This document shows, piece after piece, positions 906-48,400 of a stretch of DNA of 64,000 bases (its first letter is position 1; every line of letters begins with the position of its first letter). The notes below the pieces were generated by a model. It worked only from the letters and a program-made list of their open reading frames with translations. It was not told the origin of the DNA and made no database searches. The position numbers and the translations under genes are program-made. Source of the DNA: Lineus longissimus (Eukaryota > Nemertea > Pilidiophora > Heteronemertea > Lineidae); assembly GCF_910592395.1 (NCBI RefSeq), contig NC_088323.1, positions 6,572,001 through 6,636,000 on the forward strand, read 5' to 3'.

Positions 906-2278
906 CTAAATTCGCAATTCATTTCGAAGAAGCCGTCGCAAACATGTGTACAGATTTAATCTCTCGTATGCGTCGGTATCGTCCATATTAAGGTTGTTCT
1001 CCTCCATCAAAATGCTACATATTTCAGAGATGTCACTATCGCAAGGCGCATTGTGGTCCTTAAAGATGCAATCAGGAATGCACACGTTTAACTCATTTTG
1101 GCCGACTTCCTGCAAGTAAACATCCACGTTATACATCTCTGGGACACTGTACATAACAAGAGGACGTCCAGACGGCACGTGTGCGTTCCGACTTGGTCGA
1201 ATAAGGTGGTTGTTCCACACATCTACCACTTCATCAAGCTCCGTCTAGAAAAGATTGAAGCAGATTGAAGTATTACAACAATGCCAATGTACCACTGCCT
1301 ATACTAAATTTGCAGTTAAGGTAGCTGATGAGTACTAAACATGACTTGACTTCTCCAAGAGCATTAGATAATCGTGTTAAGAACCACCCATTCCCTGATA
1401 TAACTTTGGTCCCCGCAGTATAGGATCGTTTCTATTTTACGCTTGTCGCTTAAAAACGCTGCACTCACCTGGATAACATCCATAAAGCAGAACTGGAGAA
1501 TATTTTTTTCAATGAAGTCTCCGTCGTATAAGCCGTCAGATGACAACTGTTGGAAGATATCCATCCAGAATTGACCACATTCTTTGCGTAGGACACCCCA
1601 CCATGATTCGATCCGCTGGTTTAGCTTGCTGGTCCCAGTCACAAAGGGAAGTTCGTTGTCGTTTGGTTGAAGGAATGTCTGCATTGCCTCGACGTGTCCG
1701 TTTTCCGTGCCTAGATCTGAACGAATACGGCAAGGGCATCCCCCTACCTTGTCAACAGTTTCAAGGAAGTATCCAGCTATAACTCTCGGGTCATTGTTAG
1801 TAGTATAAACGTTTAACCACATAATATTTCTGGAAAAACCATCCACACACCCATTTATACAGAACCCGTAGGGTTTCAGTTTATCGTACGAGTCTAAATG
1901 CCATATATAGTTTGGACCCATGCTGAAGTAACTTCTTCGAACGAGTTTACCACATCTTCTCGAAGCGACTCCCATAGGGTCCAGCAATAGCAATAACAAC
2001 CGAACAGTTTCTCTATTGGTGCGAAGTCCGTTTTGTATGCTCTTCAGATGCATCCATCGGTACCCATGCTGTCTACCAGAGCCCCGGATCTGTGCTTCTA
2101 CGTATTCAGCAACTTCCAATATATCAGAATACCCTTTCCGCCTGCCAAGGTCCAACTTTTTGAGTATCCGTTTTAGGTGGCGGAGACTTATCCTGGTGTT
2201 ATATCGATACCAAAGTAGGCCTTGAATTTCAGCATAATTCCAGCCGAGATGGAAATATAACTGTGTGACGTCATCCAT
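906..2278 (-). CDS. Integrase-core (DDE) domain protein, transposon-derived, two exons
   Basis: Predicted join on the minus strand: 2278..1469 then 1244..906, 382 aa, with both junctions in phase 0. The donor reads CAG|GTGAGT and the acceptor TTTTCTAG|ACG. The first ~90 residues look like a helix-turn-helix region (SLRHLKRILKKLDLGRRKGY). A retroviral-integrase-like core follows: first Asp in WHLDSYDKLKPYG, second Asp in RIRSDLGTENG, and Glu in RIESWWGVLRKE, giving a D-D-E triad. The C-terminal part comes from exon 2. Such genes are widespread, multi-copy and unnamed in fish and marine invertebrates. The intron and clean frame argue that it is an intact gene and not a decayed copy. I see no flanking terminal repeats or target duplications. 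Whether it still moves DNA or is domesticated cannot be told. The start is the first Met of the open frame; an upstream exon is possible. Confidence 0.75.
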
Positions 2279-2487
2279 GGGATAAAATGTGAAAAGGAGG
2301 CCCTATCGATGCGAATAGGCTACGTCGCAGTGTAGTGCAATTTTATATCAAAAAATGATGTGAACAGCCACGGACAAGGTCCTGCATAGCTTCCTATAGC
2401 TTCAAAGCCGAGGCGAAGGAAGTGGTTTAGTATGCCTTGTTGGAGTTCAACAACACGGGTATCGTTGTAAGCACGGCTGTGATTGGA

Positions 2488-6565: not shown

Positions 6566-14112
<7,547 letters not shown>

Positions 14113-39434: not shown

Positions 39435-42400
39435 ATGCCTCATAATAGAGAATACTACCAGAGTAAACGAGAGTCCAGGGAATTCGCTGATTACCATGAA
39501 GAAGAACCACGTGAAAGAGTTGGGCGTAGCCGTGGTGGTCATGGTGGTGGACCACCTGGTTCGTCCTCGAAACGTTCGAAGCAACACCTGGAACGAGAAC
39601 TTGGCCCAGCAGAACCGCATGGCTTGGAACGCGATCACGATCGGGAACGACTGAAAAAAAAGAAGAAAAGCAAGAAGAAAAGAACGAAGGAGGAACGTGT
39701 AGGCCGGAAGAAAGGGAAATCATTGGTGAACGAAGGTTACGATGAGATCAGTTCCGATGACGAAGTTTATTCGCCTGCCCATGGCCATGCTGCAGCTGCT
39801 CCGATGCCTCATTCACCATCCCCGCCTGCCAGAAGCGTGAAAAGTCGTGTGGACCCAGAACATAAAAAATCTAAGAGTCACAGTCGTGAGGGGAGGATTT
39901 CGCCAAGCACTGCCATCCAGCAATATAAACACGATTTGATTGTTCGAGATCATAGCCAGTCGCCTGCCCAACCTCGTGAACGAGGCCAGCATCCACAGAA
40001 AGTCAAAGGGAAGCGTGGACGCCCTCCCTCACCAGATGGTCCACCTCCTGCAGGACCACTTCCGAAAGCATATAGACCAAAGAACGAGCAACCGCCGGTC
40101 CCAGGACTCTCGCCAACAAGGCAGTCCCCTCCCAAGGGATACAGCGTTTCCAAGGGGTACAGTTCAAAACAAAAATATGCAGACTCTAATCGTTCCTTTG
40201 GCTCTGTTGGTCGAGGGCACGCAGCAACTGGCAGTGACTATCAGATCTATGGAAGTCCAAAGCGACAAAAATATAATCGATCTCCAAGTCCTGGTGCGTA
40301 CAGACGTCGCTCAAGAAGCAGAAGTCCAATTTTTAGGTGGGTATAGTGATGGTCTACAGACCACATTTGAAAGTCTGTAAAAGTGGGTAATAAAAATGTG
40401 CAATACACGTTCATGCACAGCAAAATTGTATGTAAAAACATTTTTTTTCGCCTGCTGGCCGACCTTCGATGTGGTGTATTGTTAAGAAATTCATTGCGTA
40501 GAGATTTATGGCAGGTCATCGTCGTCGGAAAGAAATTGATCGTTCTCCATTGTACATTCCTACATGGTATTTTGTATTTTGACTCTCGCATAATTTCGTA
40601 TTTATTTTTAGGCCCAAGAAGCGTCGAAAAGAGCGAGGTGGTCGAGAGGAATTCGAATCTAATCGTGATCCATATCAACGTGTTCGTCGAAGATCACGGA
40701 GTCCCTCAAGTTCAAGGTCCTACAATCGTCACAAATCAAGAAGTCTTTCACCACCCCCTGGTGGCAGGGGTAAAAAAATGAACGCCACGAACACTAGCCA
40801 GACAACTCTGAAATATGCCTCCAGTTTGGCAGCTGAGCTTAGTAAACATAAAAAGGCACGGGAGAAAGCTGCGAAGCTTGGCGGACCGCGACCACACCGG
40901 ACAAGTCCCGGACCATATACTAAGGACAGAACGTTGAACTTGTTACGAGAAGACATAAAATCTTTAGGAAATTCTCCAATTGGTGCTCCCCCTATGGTAA
41001 AGAAAGAAGTTAAACCTGAACGAACAGTAGAAATAAGTCGACCTGCACCGGTCAAACCGGACAATTCTAGTGTTCGTGTTAAGAAAGAAGAACCGGTCAT
41101 AGAGCAAAGGGATGCACGTGATCGGGAACGCGAAATGCGGGAGCGGGAAATCCGTGAACGCAACGAACGTGAGGAAATAGAGCGTCAAAAGCGTGAACGG
41201 TATGAACGAGAAAAGAGAGAACACGAGATGAGGATTCGAGAAGAGAAGAAGCGTTCCCAGCCTCCACCTCCACAGCAGCAGCCGTCGACGTTACTGGGGT
41301 TGCCGATGCCACCGGAGGTCGGCTCGGATGATGATAGTAGTAGTAGTGCTTCCTCCGATAGGTAAGGATTGTGTGCTGTGCCAACAAACAACAACTGGTT
41401 GAATGTAATGATGATTTCAGGGTACTCTCCGAGTATGTTTTCTATTGATACATTTTGCAATATATTTTCATCCTCTCTGAGCCATTGCACTCTGTAACTT
41501 CAATATTCCATTCCAGAGACAGTCCTCAGCGCTCTCCTCCACGCAAAGGCATCCGTGATCTGCCAATGCCGCCGCAGTATGATGATGAAGAAGAAGGAAG
41601 TCTGTCCAGTTACCCCGCACACATGCAAGCGACCATACAGCAGAGAAGGATGTTAGCCATGCACTCACAGATGCAGCCTATGGCCGCCCCAGAACCAGAG
41701 GCACCCATTCCAAAGTGGAAGTTAAAACGACCAAGGTTAGTGTTACTACTTGTTGGACGTGTGTGTTCCCAGTTACCCACAGACATTTGGACTGATACAG
41801 AAATACTGGATTGGCAGGCATCCAACTCCCCTGTCCAGAGGAACCAGATTAGATAGGAGACCTGGAACTGACAGCCAAACTCGAGAAGAGTGTACAGTCT
41901 GGCTGAACTGAGGTCAACTTCATAACCAGACTTATCTGAGCTGCTGTCGAATGCAAAGAAAAAAAGAAGATTTGTTGCAAACTCATCTTTTTTGCACACT
42001 GGATAGACAATTTGATAAGGTCTTGGCCAAGGCAATCTTGAACAAAAATGGCCACGTGTGCTCCTGAACACCTTGGGGTGACCAGACAAGGATTTGAATG
42101 CTGCGCCCTTGTAATTCGAGACAGGCACTTTCACCATTCTCCACTGCGCTGATTGTGTGCCAGGTGACTGGCCAACAGTGACGCCTCGTGAATAGTTCAT
42201 GTAACCTTTCCTCGATCTTCTTTATCTCCTTCAGAGTTAATACCGCTGTTCAGCAGCCAAAGACCGAGGAGGGCGAGTGGGGTGAACGCTGTGTAGAAGT
42301 GTTTGAAATCATCACCCAGATTGGTGAAGGCACCTATGGCCAGGTCTACAAGGCTAAAGACAAAAATAGCACGGGGACCATGGACAAGTTTTCTAGTAAG

Positions 42401-45400
42401 TATAGACGCGATAATTATTGGTAACGTCAAAAAATCCTGCCACTTGCACTGACAGTGGGTCCACCTATTGCCAGATATGGTTTGACAGAGGAGCCAGTGT
42501 CAAAGAATAAGCTCTTGTTGTATTCTCAAGCAAATCTGCACTTTGCCAATTCGTTGACTGCAAGCCCATGCATGCGGATGCCGCCACTAAAAACTGATTA
42601 TATGGTTATTGGGCGCTTTGTCTGCTTGAGGCTAGTCCTGAGCTGAGAACAAGGATGCCCTTCTCATTGAAGTGGATGTCAGGTACACTCAGCTATATGA
42701 AAAGTCATGCTATTCAAAGGGTGCGGTGAGCGTCCATTTCGTTCCCACCTTGAATGGTTTGAGACAGTCACCGTTTGATCTGAGGAATTGAAATGCTTGG
42801 TTCGCATGAGGACACCCAAATGCATTACTTGAGTTAGTGCCCCAAATGAATCATCAAGAGACGAAATATTTGGAGACGAGTCTCCCGTTGGCAGCTCTAA
42901 CTAAACTGAACTGATGTGTTCCTTTCCCACCCTGTTCAACTCAGTGAACTTTGTGATAATAACACAGCTAGATTAATCTCTGCACTTTGTGGCGGGCAGT
43001 TTTCTTGCCTAAGGACTGTCAGTGTCAAGGGATAGAGACAATTTTATGACAATTCTAAATATCTTGTACTATGCTGTATGCTATCTCAAACATCCCGTTC
43101 AACCCATGGACTTGTGTGTTTATTCCCTCAGCTAGAGTAAACTCTTCCTGGTATTTGATCAGGCAGTTTGCTTCCCTCAGAACTGCCTCAGTACCTCTGT
43201 AGAGTGAGAGAGACAAAGAAGATTTTGAGTGATAAAACAGTTATAGCAACCTACTTTAGTTTGTTTTGTTTAGATGTGAGCCTGCTTCTCCCTTCCCTGA
43301 ACCCCCATACAAATGTCATTTACACTTTTCTAGATAAGCCAGACGACATTCTTGGAGATGAGGGTAGGCAATGTGAACTGATCTGTGCATGTAAAAAGAG
43401 TTGTTACGCTGCCGGGCCATTGATATTCAAGCTATCTATGCTGCTTATCTGGCCACAGACAGCTAGAGCATTTCATTTGGAACAAAAACAGAGCGTTTCG
43501 ATATCATTACTGTGTCGGACTGGCTCAGCAATGTTAACACCCAACCTCCTCCTTACCCTTAACCTCTCTCTGCACATAACCATTATATGTAAATTCAATT
43601 CTCAGGTTGACTGTTCCGTTGAGATGCAGCAGCTACCAGCCTTAAGTGTTTCTTCGGGGAATTTGGAAAGGCTGGGATATTAGATATTAGCAAAGAAAAG
43701 GGTAACATGAACTTAAAAATGGGCGGAGTCAGTACCCTTCTTCAAAAGAAATACTGAAGAAAGGAAACACCAGCAAATTGCACAATCTCTTGACCTTTCC
43801 AAAAACCTGATTACCTACCTTTCAATGAGAGATTCCCAGCCGATTCCTCCACCCCCTTCAATGCCATTCCTCCTTACACTGTTCCTCCTGCTTCAAAGCT
43901 GTTGTACGAATTGTAAAATACGGGGCGTGTCCCGAGATTTGGATGTTCACTGTGCATATGTATGTCAACTTCAGGTATATGAACACAAACTTTGTCAGAA
44001 AATTATTTCGTCGGGTTAAAACAAAACAAAAGTCTCCCTTACCAGCAGGTTCGCTCCCGATTCGTGTCAATTCCAAATGTGATTTCTTTTCTGCGTGTAG
44101 TTAGCTGATGTGTTAGCGTGCTCTCGTATCTTTTTACACCTTACCAAGGCGTTAGCCAATGCTGCACTGCTCTGTCTGTCTCCTCCAATACTGTCACCAT
44201 AATCTTGGACGGCGATTAAACAAAGCAAGATAAAATCTCTCAAAACCAGCGAGCGTTCCTTCTCTGGGATTGTTTGCGTCTGTGAGAAAACATCAAGAGT
44301 TTATACCAATATAATTTCTGATGAACATTTCAAGGGCAGCTCTGTCTGTCTCCTCCAATATTTTCACCATAATCTTGGACGGCGATTAAACAAAGCAAGA
44401 TAAAATCTCTCAAAACCAGCGAGCATTCCTTCTCTAGGTTTGTTTGCGTCTGTGGGAGGACAATTTAGCTACACTAGTTTGTCATTGCAGCAAATTTTAG
44501 AAAGAGCTACACGCTAATTGTCTGGGCTTCAGAATGTAGGTCCTATATGGGATTTTAGATCAAACAGATTTCGACCACCCCTGAAACAACCTGACAGAGA
44601 AAATTGTGTTGACCTCTGAATCTGAGACAATTCATCAGTTCCATCAAGATTAAATATCAACTACTAAATATGAATTAAAATTGAGTTATTTACGATTCGT
44701 TCACTCTTTGCAGGTGATATGGTCGCCTTGAAGAAAGTCCGTCTCGAAAATGAAAAGGATGGTTTCCCGATCACCGCAGTGCGTGAGATTAAAATCCTGC
44801 GTCAGTTGAACCATCCAAATATCGTCAATCTGCGCGAAATTGTGACGGATAAAAAACAAGCGTTGGATTTCAGGAAGGACAAAGGTGAGTGGTCCAGTGT
44901 TAACGATAGACTTTCAGTCCAGGATTTCCAGAGCTCAGCAGGGCAGTCTTGTTTGTTCTCATTCTGATTTCAGATGTAATTGTCGCTCTGTCTGTCTCCT
45001 CCAATATTTTCACCATAATCTTGGACGGCGATTAAACAAAGCAAGATAAAATCTCTCAAAACCAGCGGGCGTTCCTTCTCTAGGTTTGTTTGCGTCTGTG
45101 AGAGGACATCAATACCCTCAACCAATATTATTTCTGATGAAAATTATAAGCGCAGCTCTGTCTGTCTCCTCCAGTATTTTGACCGTAATCTTGGATGGCG
45201 ATTAAACAAAGCAAGATAAAATCTCTCAAAACCAGCGAGCGTTTCTTCTCTAGGTTTGTTTGCGTCTGTGAGAGGACATCAATACCTTCTATCAATATTA
45301 TTTCTGATGAATATTATAAGCGCAGCTCTGTCTGTCTCCTCCAGTATTTTCACCGTAATCTTGGATGGCGATTAAACAAAGCAAGATAAAATCTCTCAAA

Positions 45401-48400
45401 ACCAGCGAGCGTTCCTTCTCTAGGTTTGTTTGCGTCTGTGAGAGGACATCAATACCTTCTATCAATATTATTTCTGATGAATATTATAAGCGCAGCTCTG
45501 TCTGTCTCCTCCAGTATTTTCACCATAATCTTGGACGGCGATTAAACAAAGCAAGATAAAATCTCTCAAAACCAGCGAGCGTTCCTTCTCTAGGTTTGTT
45601 TGCGTCTGTGAGAAAATATCAATACTTTTAATCTACCATTTGTGATAAAAAATTTAAGCGCAGCTCTGTAAAATGGCAGCAAATATTTCTGAGTTTATAG
45701 TATATTGTCTGTGTTCTTTTCTCGTAGGTCAAGTCTGCTATTTGTCACCTGATACCCTTAGACCTTGTCCATACTCTATACTAAAATATCCTCCCGTTGC
45801 AGGTGCATTTTATCTGGTCTTTGAATACATGGATCACGACTTAATGGGATTACTGGAGTCTGGATTGGTTCACTTCAACGAGGACCACATCGCATCGTTC
45901 ATGAAGCAGCTTCTCGACGGCCTCAACTATTGCCATGGAAAGAACTTCCTGCATCGCGACATCAAGTGTTCAAATATCTTACTCAACAACAAGTAGGTGG
46001 TGATTTTCTTTAGATACAAACTGTACTGAAGTCTGCCATCTGTATGTAAAGTCTAATCCGGTTTTAGGTATTGCCAGCAGGTACTCAGGGGTGCAGAATT
46101 AGATGTGTCTCTGACCAACCCACAGAAATTGCTTTCAATCTTCTTCTTCTAATAAAAACACACTTTATGTGTAGGAAAATACCTCGAAGTCCATGTTACA
46201 GCTGGTGAATGACAGGCCCAGATGCCCACAATGTGTATAAATCTTTTAAACTTAAGATGTATGTTCATGTTTATAAAAGGGTGGCCTGTAGTGTAACGCA
46301 ATATTTCTCTGCCTTCTCTTTTGTATGCAGTATGGCTTATGTAGTACACCTCCAGCAGGCTGACAACACTAACTAGGAGATCATCGGGCATTTTCATCAA
46401 GAGCCAACAGAGAAGATCTTAAGCTATGGATGCCTCAAAAGTTGATTGTGTAGCTAATAGTTTGTAGTGTTAGTCATGTCAGCAAGTGAATTGACCGGAA
46501 TTTGATGAATTAGAAAAGACACTTAGGACTTCATTGTTTCAGCTCAATGATGTGCCAGGCTGGATTTGAGCCCTTTAATTTGCACCAGTGTTGGGAAGTA
46601 CTGTTCAGTTCCAAGGCTTGGCAGATGGAGCATTTTAAATTGGGATGCACTTGTAGGCTAGTTTTATTTCAGGTCTTGATTGGAGAATTCGGCCTACTGT
46701 GATTACCTGGATTAGCTCTGCATTCTTGGACAACATGCTTGATTTTCAGATTTCGATGTCAAACATGTTACGGTATGAGTTGGTACCATGAAGTCAGAAG
46801 ATGATTTAGATAGGTTTTGCTTGGAATCCACCATCAAATGTGCTATTTAGGATATGTCCCCCCCCCCCCCCCCTTCGGTTGGCGTCTTCAGTACAGTTTA
46901 AAAAACCTCGCAATACTCTTGTGCCTTCAATTCAGATGTCAAAATATTTTGCAATTGACCTTCATTTTTGCCTACAGATATTTTCTGACATTAAAATGAG
47001 ATGTTGGAATAAAAACAAAAAACAATTTGTCAAATTTTTAAAATTCAAGGGCGCAAGACTGTTGTTATAAACTCTTTGCATGCTTTAGCTATTGTCCGTT
47101 TACACTTTCAAAATGACACTGTTTGAATGATATTTCATAACCTCATCAATACCAATTGATAACTTTCTTTTTATCGTTTATTGAAAGATTCCATTGTTGA
47201 CCAAATAACTGTTTTTTTCAGGTTCGGAATGTTCATAATTAATGATCATTACTAACAACAATTTCATAAACCTGAGTTTTTTCTTATAATCCCAATAATC
47301 TACCCAAAATGTAAAAATATGAAAAAATGCAAAACGTTAACTTTTTCTGAAAAATCTTTTTTCTTCAGGGTTTATTGTGACAATGTTTATATAATCATCG
47401 ACGTATCAAGAATTGCGTCTTATTTTTAGCCTCCTTTCAGGAAATAATTTTGGCGAAGGTTTGTATCTGGTACTGGGCTCGCTGGGTAAACAACTTGTGC
47501 GACGGCAACCTGATAGAAATTGATTGCTATCTCAACTGTCTGGTTGGAGGAATGTTCAGAGTTCAAATCTTGCTTTTTCTCTTACAAGGTTTTCGATCAC
47601 TGAAACATCCACAGCCAATGGCAGGGCTCACAAGATCCAACTAGCTGCAAGGCACTTCGATGAAACTTAGAAAATAAAAAATCCATTCTCTCGGACCATT
47701 TCAGGCTACTCTGAACTTGGCGTGATGGTCGCTGGAGTTGAAGAATGATCTTTTATGCTTACTTTGAAGTTATAGCTTCCTGATTGCCTCCCCGAGTAGG
47801 CCTCAAGGAAAGCTATTTTCATTCCTCTCTAAAGCGAAAGCATTTCCTCTGCAGCAGTGGCCTTTCGAGCCCTGTTCACCAATTGTTTACCCAGGGGAGC
47901 TTGATTGTGCCAATCACGGGGTTCTCATCGACGCCCCCTATGTTCTTGAATGTAACTCTTGCTTCTCTTTAAGGGGTCAGATCAAGTTAGCTGACTTTGG
48001 TTTAGCGCGGCTCTACCAGGCAGACGACAAGGAGAGGCCGTACACGAATAAGGTGATCACACTGTGGTACCGGCCCCCTGAGCTCCTGCTTGGCGAGGAG
48101 AGATACGGATGTGCCATCGATGTCTGGAGCTGCGGGTAGGTAGCATGTCGAGCATGAATCTGGGGTCTGCAGGTTTGAAGAAATTTTCATTTGACATTGG
48201 AAGTTCGGACCGGCGTGAAGGGTCTGATGGATGTAAAATCTAGACTTATTGATAAAGATTGTCAGTCCCTGACCTTTTCAAATTCAGCCATTGATCTCTG
48301 GTCCCGATAGCGGAAAACCCTTAGGGTCAGTTGGACACAGCCGCTTATCTCTCCCCATCTTTTCCAGCTGCATCTTGGGCGAGTTGTTCACCAAAAAGCC

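Follow-up and report, generated by a model that had tools for sequence, protein, structure and literature searches.

How did two families of small, guide-RNA-like units come to be repeated in the introns of two neighbouring genes that are transcribed in opposite directions? The question is raised by a 64,000-nucleotide (nt) stretch of the Lineus longissimus genome (contig NC_088323.1, positions 6,572,001 to 6,636,000; hereafter the window, which supplies all coordinates below), in which we mapped 26 units, 14 of family A (8 in ATP5F1B and 6 in CDK12) and 12 of family B (10 in ATP5F1B and 2 in CDK12). Our analysis suggests that these units are probably intron-encoded H/ACA guide RNAs, which multiplied within introns and were passed locally between the two hosts; we infer from it how they may be processed, what they may target, and by which exact route and in which direction they may have been copied. 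The units are as follows, with the introns that contain them, each intron having GT-AG ends.

42396..44713, +, CDK12 intron 4, host of cB1, cB2, cA1 and cA2 (in-frame exon join, CDK12 as PDB match)
42911..43043, +, cB1, family B unit, subtype B'
43071..43218, +, cB2, family B unit, subtype B1
44169..44295, +, cA1, family A H/ACA unit
44339..44465, +, cA2, family A H/ACA unit
44885..45802, +, CDK12 intron 5, host of cA3-cA6
44985..45111, +, cA3, family A H/ACA unit
45155..45281, +, cA4, family A H/ACA unit
45325..45451, +, cA5, family A H/ACA unit
45495..45621, +, cA6, family A unit with ATA at the ACA position
45622..45669, +, spacer and initial bases of a next, truncated A unit (BLAST homology to 45669, flank comparison)
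12748..13203, -, ATP5F1B intron 2, host of aA1
12841..12968, -, aA1, family A unit, single and most divergent
9688..11054, -, ATP5F1B intron 6, host of aA2-aA8
10834..10960, -, aA2, family A unit
10664..10790, -, aA3, family A unit
10490..10616, -, aA4, family A unit
10316..10442, -, aA5, family A unit
10142..10268, -, aA6, family A unit
9972..10098, -, aA7, family A unit
9802..9928, -, aA8, family A unit
7323..9474, -, ATP5F1B intron 7, host of aB1-aB10
9161..9293, -, aB1, family B unit, subtype B'
8996..9126, -, aB2, family B unit, subtype B2 (chimera-like)
8815..8953, -, aB3, family B unit, subtype B1
8616..8754, -, aB4, family B unit, subtype B1
8422..8561, -, aB5, family B unit, subtype B1
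8241..8373, -, aB6, family B unit, subtype B2
8060..8198, -, aB7, family B unit, subtype B1
7878..8017, -, aB8, family B unit, subtype B1
7697..7829, -, aB9, family B unit, subtype B2
7515..7654, -, aB10, family B unit, subtype B1

The joined exons of ATP5F1B, on the minus strand, encoded 530 amino acids and were separated by eight GT-AG introns; ATP synthase beta was the top PDB match (E 7.4e-289, a result taken at a cut-off of 1e-220, the search at 1e-300 having given no row). On the plus strand, the exons flanking the CDK12 units joined in frame and had CDK12 as their top PDB match (E 1.5e-79). This gene was modelled only around the units, and its intron numbers 4 and 5 come from a by-eye fit to the upstream open reading frames; its C-terminal exon gave 7 protein matches, 5 of them named, and we take all 5 to be lophotrochozoan. 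ATP5F1B carries one A unit in intron 2, seven in intron 6 and ten B units in intron 7, and CDK12 carries B', B1, A and A in intron 4 and four A units in intron 5, the tandem arrays having periods near 170 bp and near 180-200 bp. The sequence-only reading had described two B and six A units in CDK12 introns 4 and 5, on the strand opposite to ATP5F1B and about 30 kb from it, with all 26 units in host sense and two guide-RNA-like families common to the introns of both genes. The unit map and the exon joins bore this out, including the distance, the strands and the orientation (26/26), with family A of H/ACA type by its anatomy and family B H/ACA-like.

By its predicted anatomy, family A is a box H/ACA family. 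Single folds and the consensus fold of the 14 units (34 consensus pairs) gave two hairpins and a hinge, with an H box between the hairpins (AGATAA in 14/14, fitting ANANNA) and an ACA box near the predicted 3' end of 13/14 units, cA6 having ATA. A covariance model built from these units recovered 14/14 by construction and gave no further match at E up to 10. No Rfam family was matched at gathering level within the 64-kb window or in the 5 kb on either side. SNORA35 (RF00566) gave full-length matches to 13/14 units (aA2 was absent) at 23.2-33.9 bits, with a best E of 5e-4; all of these scores lie below the gathering cut-off of 39 bits, so membership of SNORA35 was rejected, and a distant tie to it is possible. 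Family A also has a host different from that of SNORA35, itself an H/ACA RNA, whose human host is HTR2C. A literature search on SNORA35 targets found no paper.

The distribution of changes within the family A repeats is the pattern that selection on a guide RNA would leave. No column varied in any of the four candidate pocket arms when all 14 units were compared; the stem tips had 20 variable columns out of 47, against 7 of the 77 remaining columns (Fisher p 2.7e-5, indicative only because the limits were set post hoc and column 104 was entered as both tip and arm). In the 11 repeats with a following spacer, pairwise difference was 4.2% in the units and 15.7% in the spacers, about 3.7 times less in the units, and variable columns amounted to 18/127 and 18/47, respectively (p 0.0012). 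In both tests columns rather than lineages were taken as independent, the units being related copies.

Family B is H/ACA-like in its predicted features: by reading, an ACA box and an ANANNA-like hinge occur in 12/12 units, and the consensus has a 3' hairpin. Its covariance model, also built from the units themselves, recovered 12/12 by construction and gave 7 further rows. Six hit A units weakly (E 0.003-0.14), among them hits in register at 12841-12970 (-, E 0.003) and 44339-44465 (+, E 0.009), which may reflect either common ancestry or shared H/ACA architecture; the seventh (7450-7544, +, E 5.2) was taken as chance. The three B2 units look chimeric between B' and B1, since their 3' half resembles aB1 (B') at 97% and aB3 (B1) at 88%, and their 5' half does so at 50-52% and 78-80%, respectively. 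These chimeras, together with two pairs that are identical across the aligned unit (aB2/aB6 and aB3/aB7), suggest unequal exchange or conversion.

Comparison of the two hosts by BLAST gave 36 pieces with E values of 1e-3 or lower, all in the plus direction and reaching E 0.0, far above chance, which covered only the units and their spacers. The homology spans strings of several units with their spacers (44985-45669 with 10616-9922, for example), so the copies spread in more than the form of single mature RNAs. Between hosts, A units are 87-98% identical and A spacers 70-93% alike; cB1 and aB1 are 82% alike and form one clade (support 100/99), and cB2 falls inside the B1 clade (96/94), so that the CDK12 pair retains the order B' then B1. 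The proposal that pairs of families move together was not sustained. CDK12 intron 4 has its B units ahead of its A units, ATP5F1B has A ahead of B, and no common intervening DNA was found by BLAST at E up to 1e-3; with the homologous pieces limited to units and spacers, no single A+B block is visible, and joint movement as one block was not supported. In the family A tree, which had been suggested as a way to tell donor from recipient, the CDK12 copies were scattered among the ATP5F1B copies with 5 label changes, at low supports and with an unsettled bootstrap, and a single CDK12 clade was not rejected (approximately unbiased test, p = 0.105). The most divergent A unit is aA1, the lone unit of ATP5F1B intron 2. 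ATP5F1B would be the simpler choice of donor, because all B subtypes and more copies occur there.

All units lie in host sense, although the hosts run on opposite strands. The judgement that this would be very unlikely under random orientation held for the observation and was weakened for the statistic: by our own arithmetic the odds of an all-sense outcome are 1/64 for six independent intron placements and 1/8 for three events. Orientation is therefore weak evidence, since there are at most six intron placements and arrays that are tandem or close together do not count as independent. Sense orientation is the expected requirement of small nucleolar RNAs (snoRNAs) processed from introns, and the tables of a chicken survey footnote copies opposite to their predicted host, that is, as exceptions (PMC2653536). 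The arrangement is consistent with excision of the units from host introns.

A map of genomic copies had been proposed for testing orientation on independent loci, and no such loci emerged. A DNA search of the whole genome (391,118,348 bases in 30 contigs), which scores only its best candidates, gave 17 matches, 13 of them in about 38 kb of the window and 4 elsewhere; among those candidates no A or B unit, sense or antisense, was found outside the 38 kb, so the spread of the units looks local and not dispersed. The 4 distant matches all fell to 43644-43741, a segment of CDK12 intron 4 without any unit, at 74-80% identity on C7, C8, C12 and C16 and in both orientations; it appears to be an unrelated dispersed repeat.

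In the four A groups, the predicted RNA and the homology begin together (to within one base in the host-to-host BLAST), and in 3/4 the homology ends at or near the ACA box. We compared with the spacers the 20 nt upstream of each first unit and the 20 nt starting 4 nt past the ACA of each last unit. The outer 5' flanks of the A groups had no clear spacer homology (4/4; best identity 0.20, 0.20, 0.35 and 0.50, against a random null, computed for the 5' side only, with a mean of 0.31 and a 95% point of 0.50). The outer 3' flanks reached 0.35-0.50 in 3/4 groups, the exception being cA6 (0.80), behind which homology continues for about 48 nt into a following unit; inner A flanks gave 0.90 or more (5') and 0.85 or more (3'). 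In 2/3 of the multi-unit A arrays, n units are accompanied by n-1 spacers. Family B flanks are heterogeneous (first units 0.35 and 0.60, inner 0.35-1.00) and too mixed for a judgement on edges. No direct repeat between flanks exceeded chance in any of the blocks (6/6), and no A-tail was seen by reading at the block ends, the only run of A being the AAAA after the truncated unit of the cA3-cA6 block. A snoRNA retroposon (snoRT) was not supported, as neither a target-site duplication nor an A-tail was seen and the best candidates of the genome search included no dispersed copies; old retroposition events could have lost their flank repeats and A-tail.

The candidate pockets were scanned against foreign eukaryotic ribosomal RNA (rRNA) from contigs filed under bacterial genomes. 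Eight sources were found, six were annotated (not L024 and L026) and five were scanned (L022, L025, L027, L028 and L029; L023 was left out), comprising five 28S pieces, three 18S pieces and one 5.8S. In single sources, a first scan, whose stem rule excluded the consensus A 5' pocket, gave 31.0 for A 5' against 23.2 for the best control among those listed, and 28.9 against 27.7 for A 3'. A scan with eight hairpins gave the following best real scores and control maxima: A5 26.1/25.7, A3 26.5/29.9, B1-5' 24.7/30.7, B1-3' 28.0/29.6, B'-5' 28.2/23.7, B'-3' 25.2/29.8, cB1-5' 26.5/23.0 and cB1-3' 28.4/29.9. When a site had to be common to several sources (six hairpins, cB1 being left out), A3 matched the 28S site GTGCAGA[U]CTTGG in 4/5 foreign 28S pieces at 22.8 or more, against a control maximum of 19.0; the eight-hairpin scan of single sources scored this site at 22.8-24.8, within the controls (95% point 23.5, maximum 29.9). 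The other hairpins stayed below their controls in this recurrence scan (A5 21.1/22.4, B1-5' 16.3/18.9, B1-3' 18.5/19.6, B'-5' 17.5/20.9 and B'-3' 18.1/22.9). We regard the rRNA matches of the A and B pockets as leads.

Other features were observed in the window. ATP5F1B introns 4 and 5 contain two box C/D-like RNAs (11776-11838 and 11268-11334, both -), which we presume to be U25/SNORD25-like; their Rfam matches to DdR1, snR56 and snoR25 were all sub-threshold. Both contain CACAGACCTGTT, 12 nt that match 18S rRNA (in 1/3 foreign 18S pieces) and lie directly before a D'-like box. A 312-amino-acid open frame at 1364-2302 (-) resembles, judged by eye, a transposon integrase core, and a tandem array at 2492-2743 consists of 20/21-bp units (AAAAGTCGCAGTGCGAGTTT) and 42/63-bp multiples.

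Several results weigh against local multiplication of intron-encoded H/ACA guide RNAs. Double-sided compensatory change was present in only 2/34 family A pairs, the copies being too alike, and little was gained from covariation for this reason; the 5' hairpin of family B is weak and its fold differs by subtype; the arms and tips of the post hoc pocket test were delimited with the alignment in view; and the genome search was confined to its best-scoring candidates. The eight-hairpin scan beat its controls in only 3/8 cases (A5, B'-5' and cB1-5'), each in one foreign source, the controls being equal or higher in the other 5. In addition, sharp edges at RNA ends are not predicted by simple segmental DNA duplication. 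These edges would be explained by RNA-templated copying, in which an excised RNA-spacer-RNA piece of intron, resembling a small nucleolar long non-coding RNA (sno-lncRNA) and capped by H/ACA particles, is reverse-copied and inserted locally. The outer A flanks (5' 4/4, 3' 3/4) and the two arrays with n-1 spacers are as it would have them. However, the flanks lack direct repeats and A-tails, every copy recovered by the best-candidate search falls within 38 kb, unlike random retroposition, and homology behind cA6 runs on into the next unit; family B flanks do not help to judge it, and an old single-unit insertion with decayed flanks, followed by array growth and conversion, may also give sharp edges. 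We consider such copying unlikely. Slightly less likely again is its more specific form, in which H/ACA arrays spread locally by an RNA intermediate, an end-protected multi-unit intron remnant being copied into chromatin near its own gene. If true, it would account at once for the A edges at RNA ends, the n/n-1 arrays and the confinement to 38 kb, and an insertion would survive only if it lay in sense within a host intron, the one setting in which it would be expressed.

The tandem periods and the small number of independent placements would also suit a plain tandem satellite or a non-autonomous transposon that merely resembles an H/ACA RNA and lies in sense by chance. We find this improbable, as units diverge less than spacers, the candidate pocket arms are invariant, the boxes persist, and the best candidates of the genome search include no copy outside the introns of the two hosts. 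It is hardly credible that A and B arose separately in each host and are alike only through shared H/ACA constraint: H/ACA architecture alone may yield some similarity, of the kind seen in the weak B-model matches to six A units, but the homology of the spacers contradicts a separate origin, and the identity of the A units between hosts and the cB1/aB1 clade also speak against it.

On the favoured reading of the units as H/ACA guide RNAs encoded in introns, the host pre-mRNA would be transcribed and spliced, and H/ACA proteins would bind the H and ACA boxes of each unit. Nucleases would then trim the intron or cut it, along with the spacers, leaving stable particles, which could pair with a target RNA through two internal-loop pockets and direct the isomerisation of a uridine. 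The units would depend on the host promoter, so that only sense copies would work and be kept. Multiplication within an intron may have proceeded by unequal exchange of unit-plus-spacer repeats, and transfer between hosts by duplication or gene conversion acting locally and not by genome-wide retroposition.

The locus adds two H/ACA-type families without an Rfam match at gathering level and offers a dense natural example in which guide RNAs multiply and pass from one gene into its neighbour. The contrast between units and spacers makes constraint on an RNA measurable within a single genome; how H/ACA genes copy is a testable question raised by the sharp edges of the arrays. A literature search within a limited collection of papers found none combining nemertean, snoRNA and intron.

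Intronic clusters of H/ACA isoforms occur in Drosophila. The 26 units are real, unusually dense and of unusual layout, and their gene-family kind is otherwise familiar, because intronic snoRNAs are already established to duplicate both in cis and in trans (PMC2653536, PMC3412847, PMC8178906, PMC2832892). Like the duplicated intronic snoRNAs reported from chicken (PMC2653536), from sponge ribosomal-protein introns (PMC3412847) and from human (PMC8178906), they have intron hosts and both within-host and cross-host copies. Unlike the chicken H/ACA snoRNAs, about 90% of which the survey gives as singletons (PMC2653536), the H/ACA-like units here number 7 and 10 in single introns, and their second host is a near neighbour. 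A 2024 review describes one snoRNA per intron as the predominant rule, alongside intronic clusters, and its large tandem repeats are box C/D (PMC11028025). Local tandem amplification, subfamilies and partial block duplication are shared with SNORD113/114 and SNORD115/116 as treated there, but those are box C/D RNAs of imprinted loci, whereas the present units are of H/ACA type and lie in two protein-coding genes (PMC11028025). The Drosophila mfl cluster likewise holds related small RNA copies inside the introns of a protein gene, with one per intron and with repeats that are box C/D or unclassified (PMC1821038); here, in contrast, many H/ACA-type units share a single intron.

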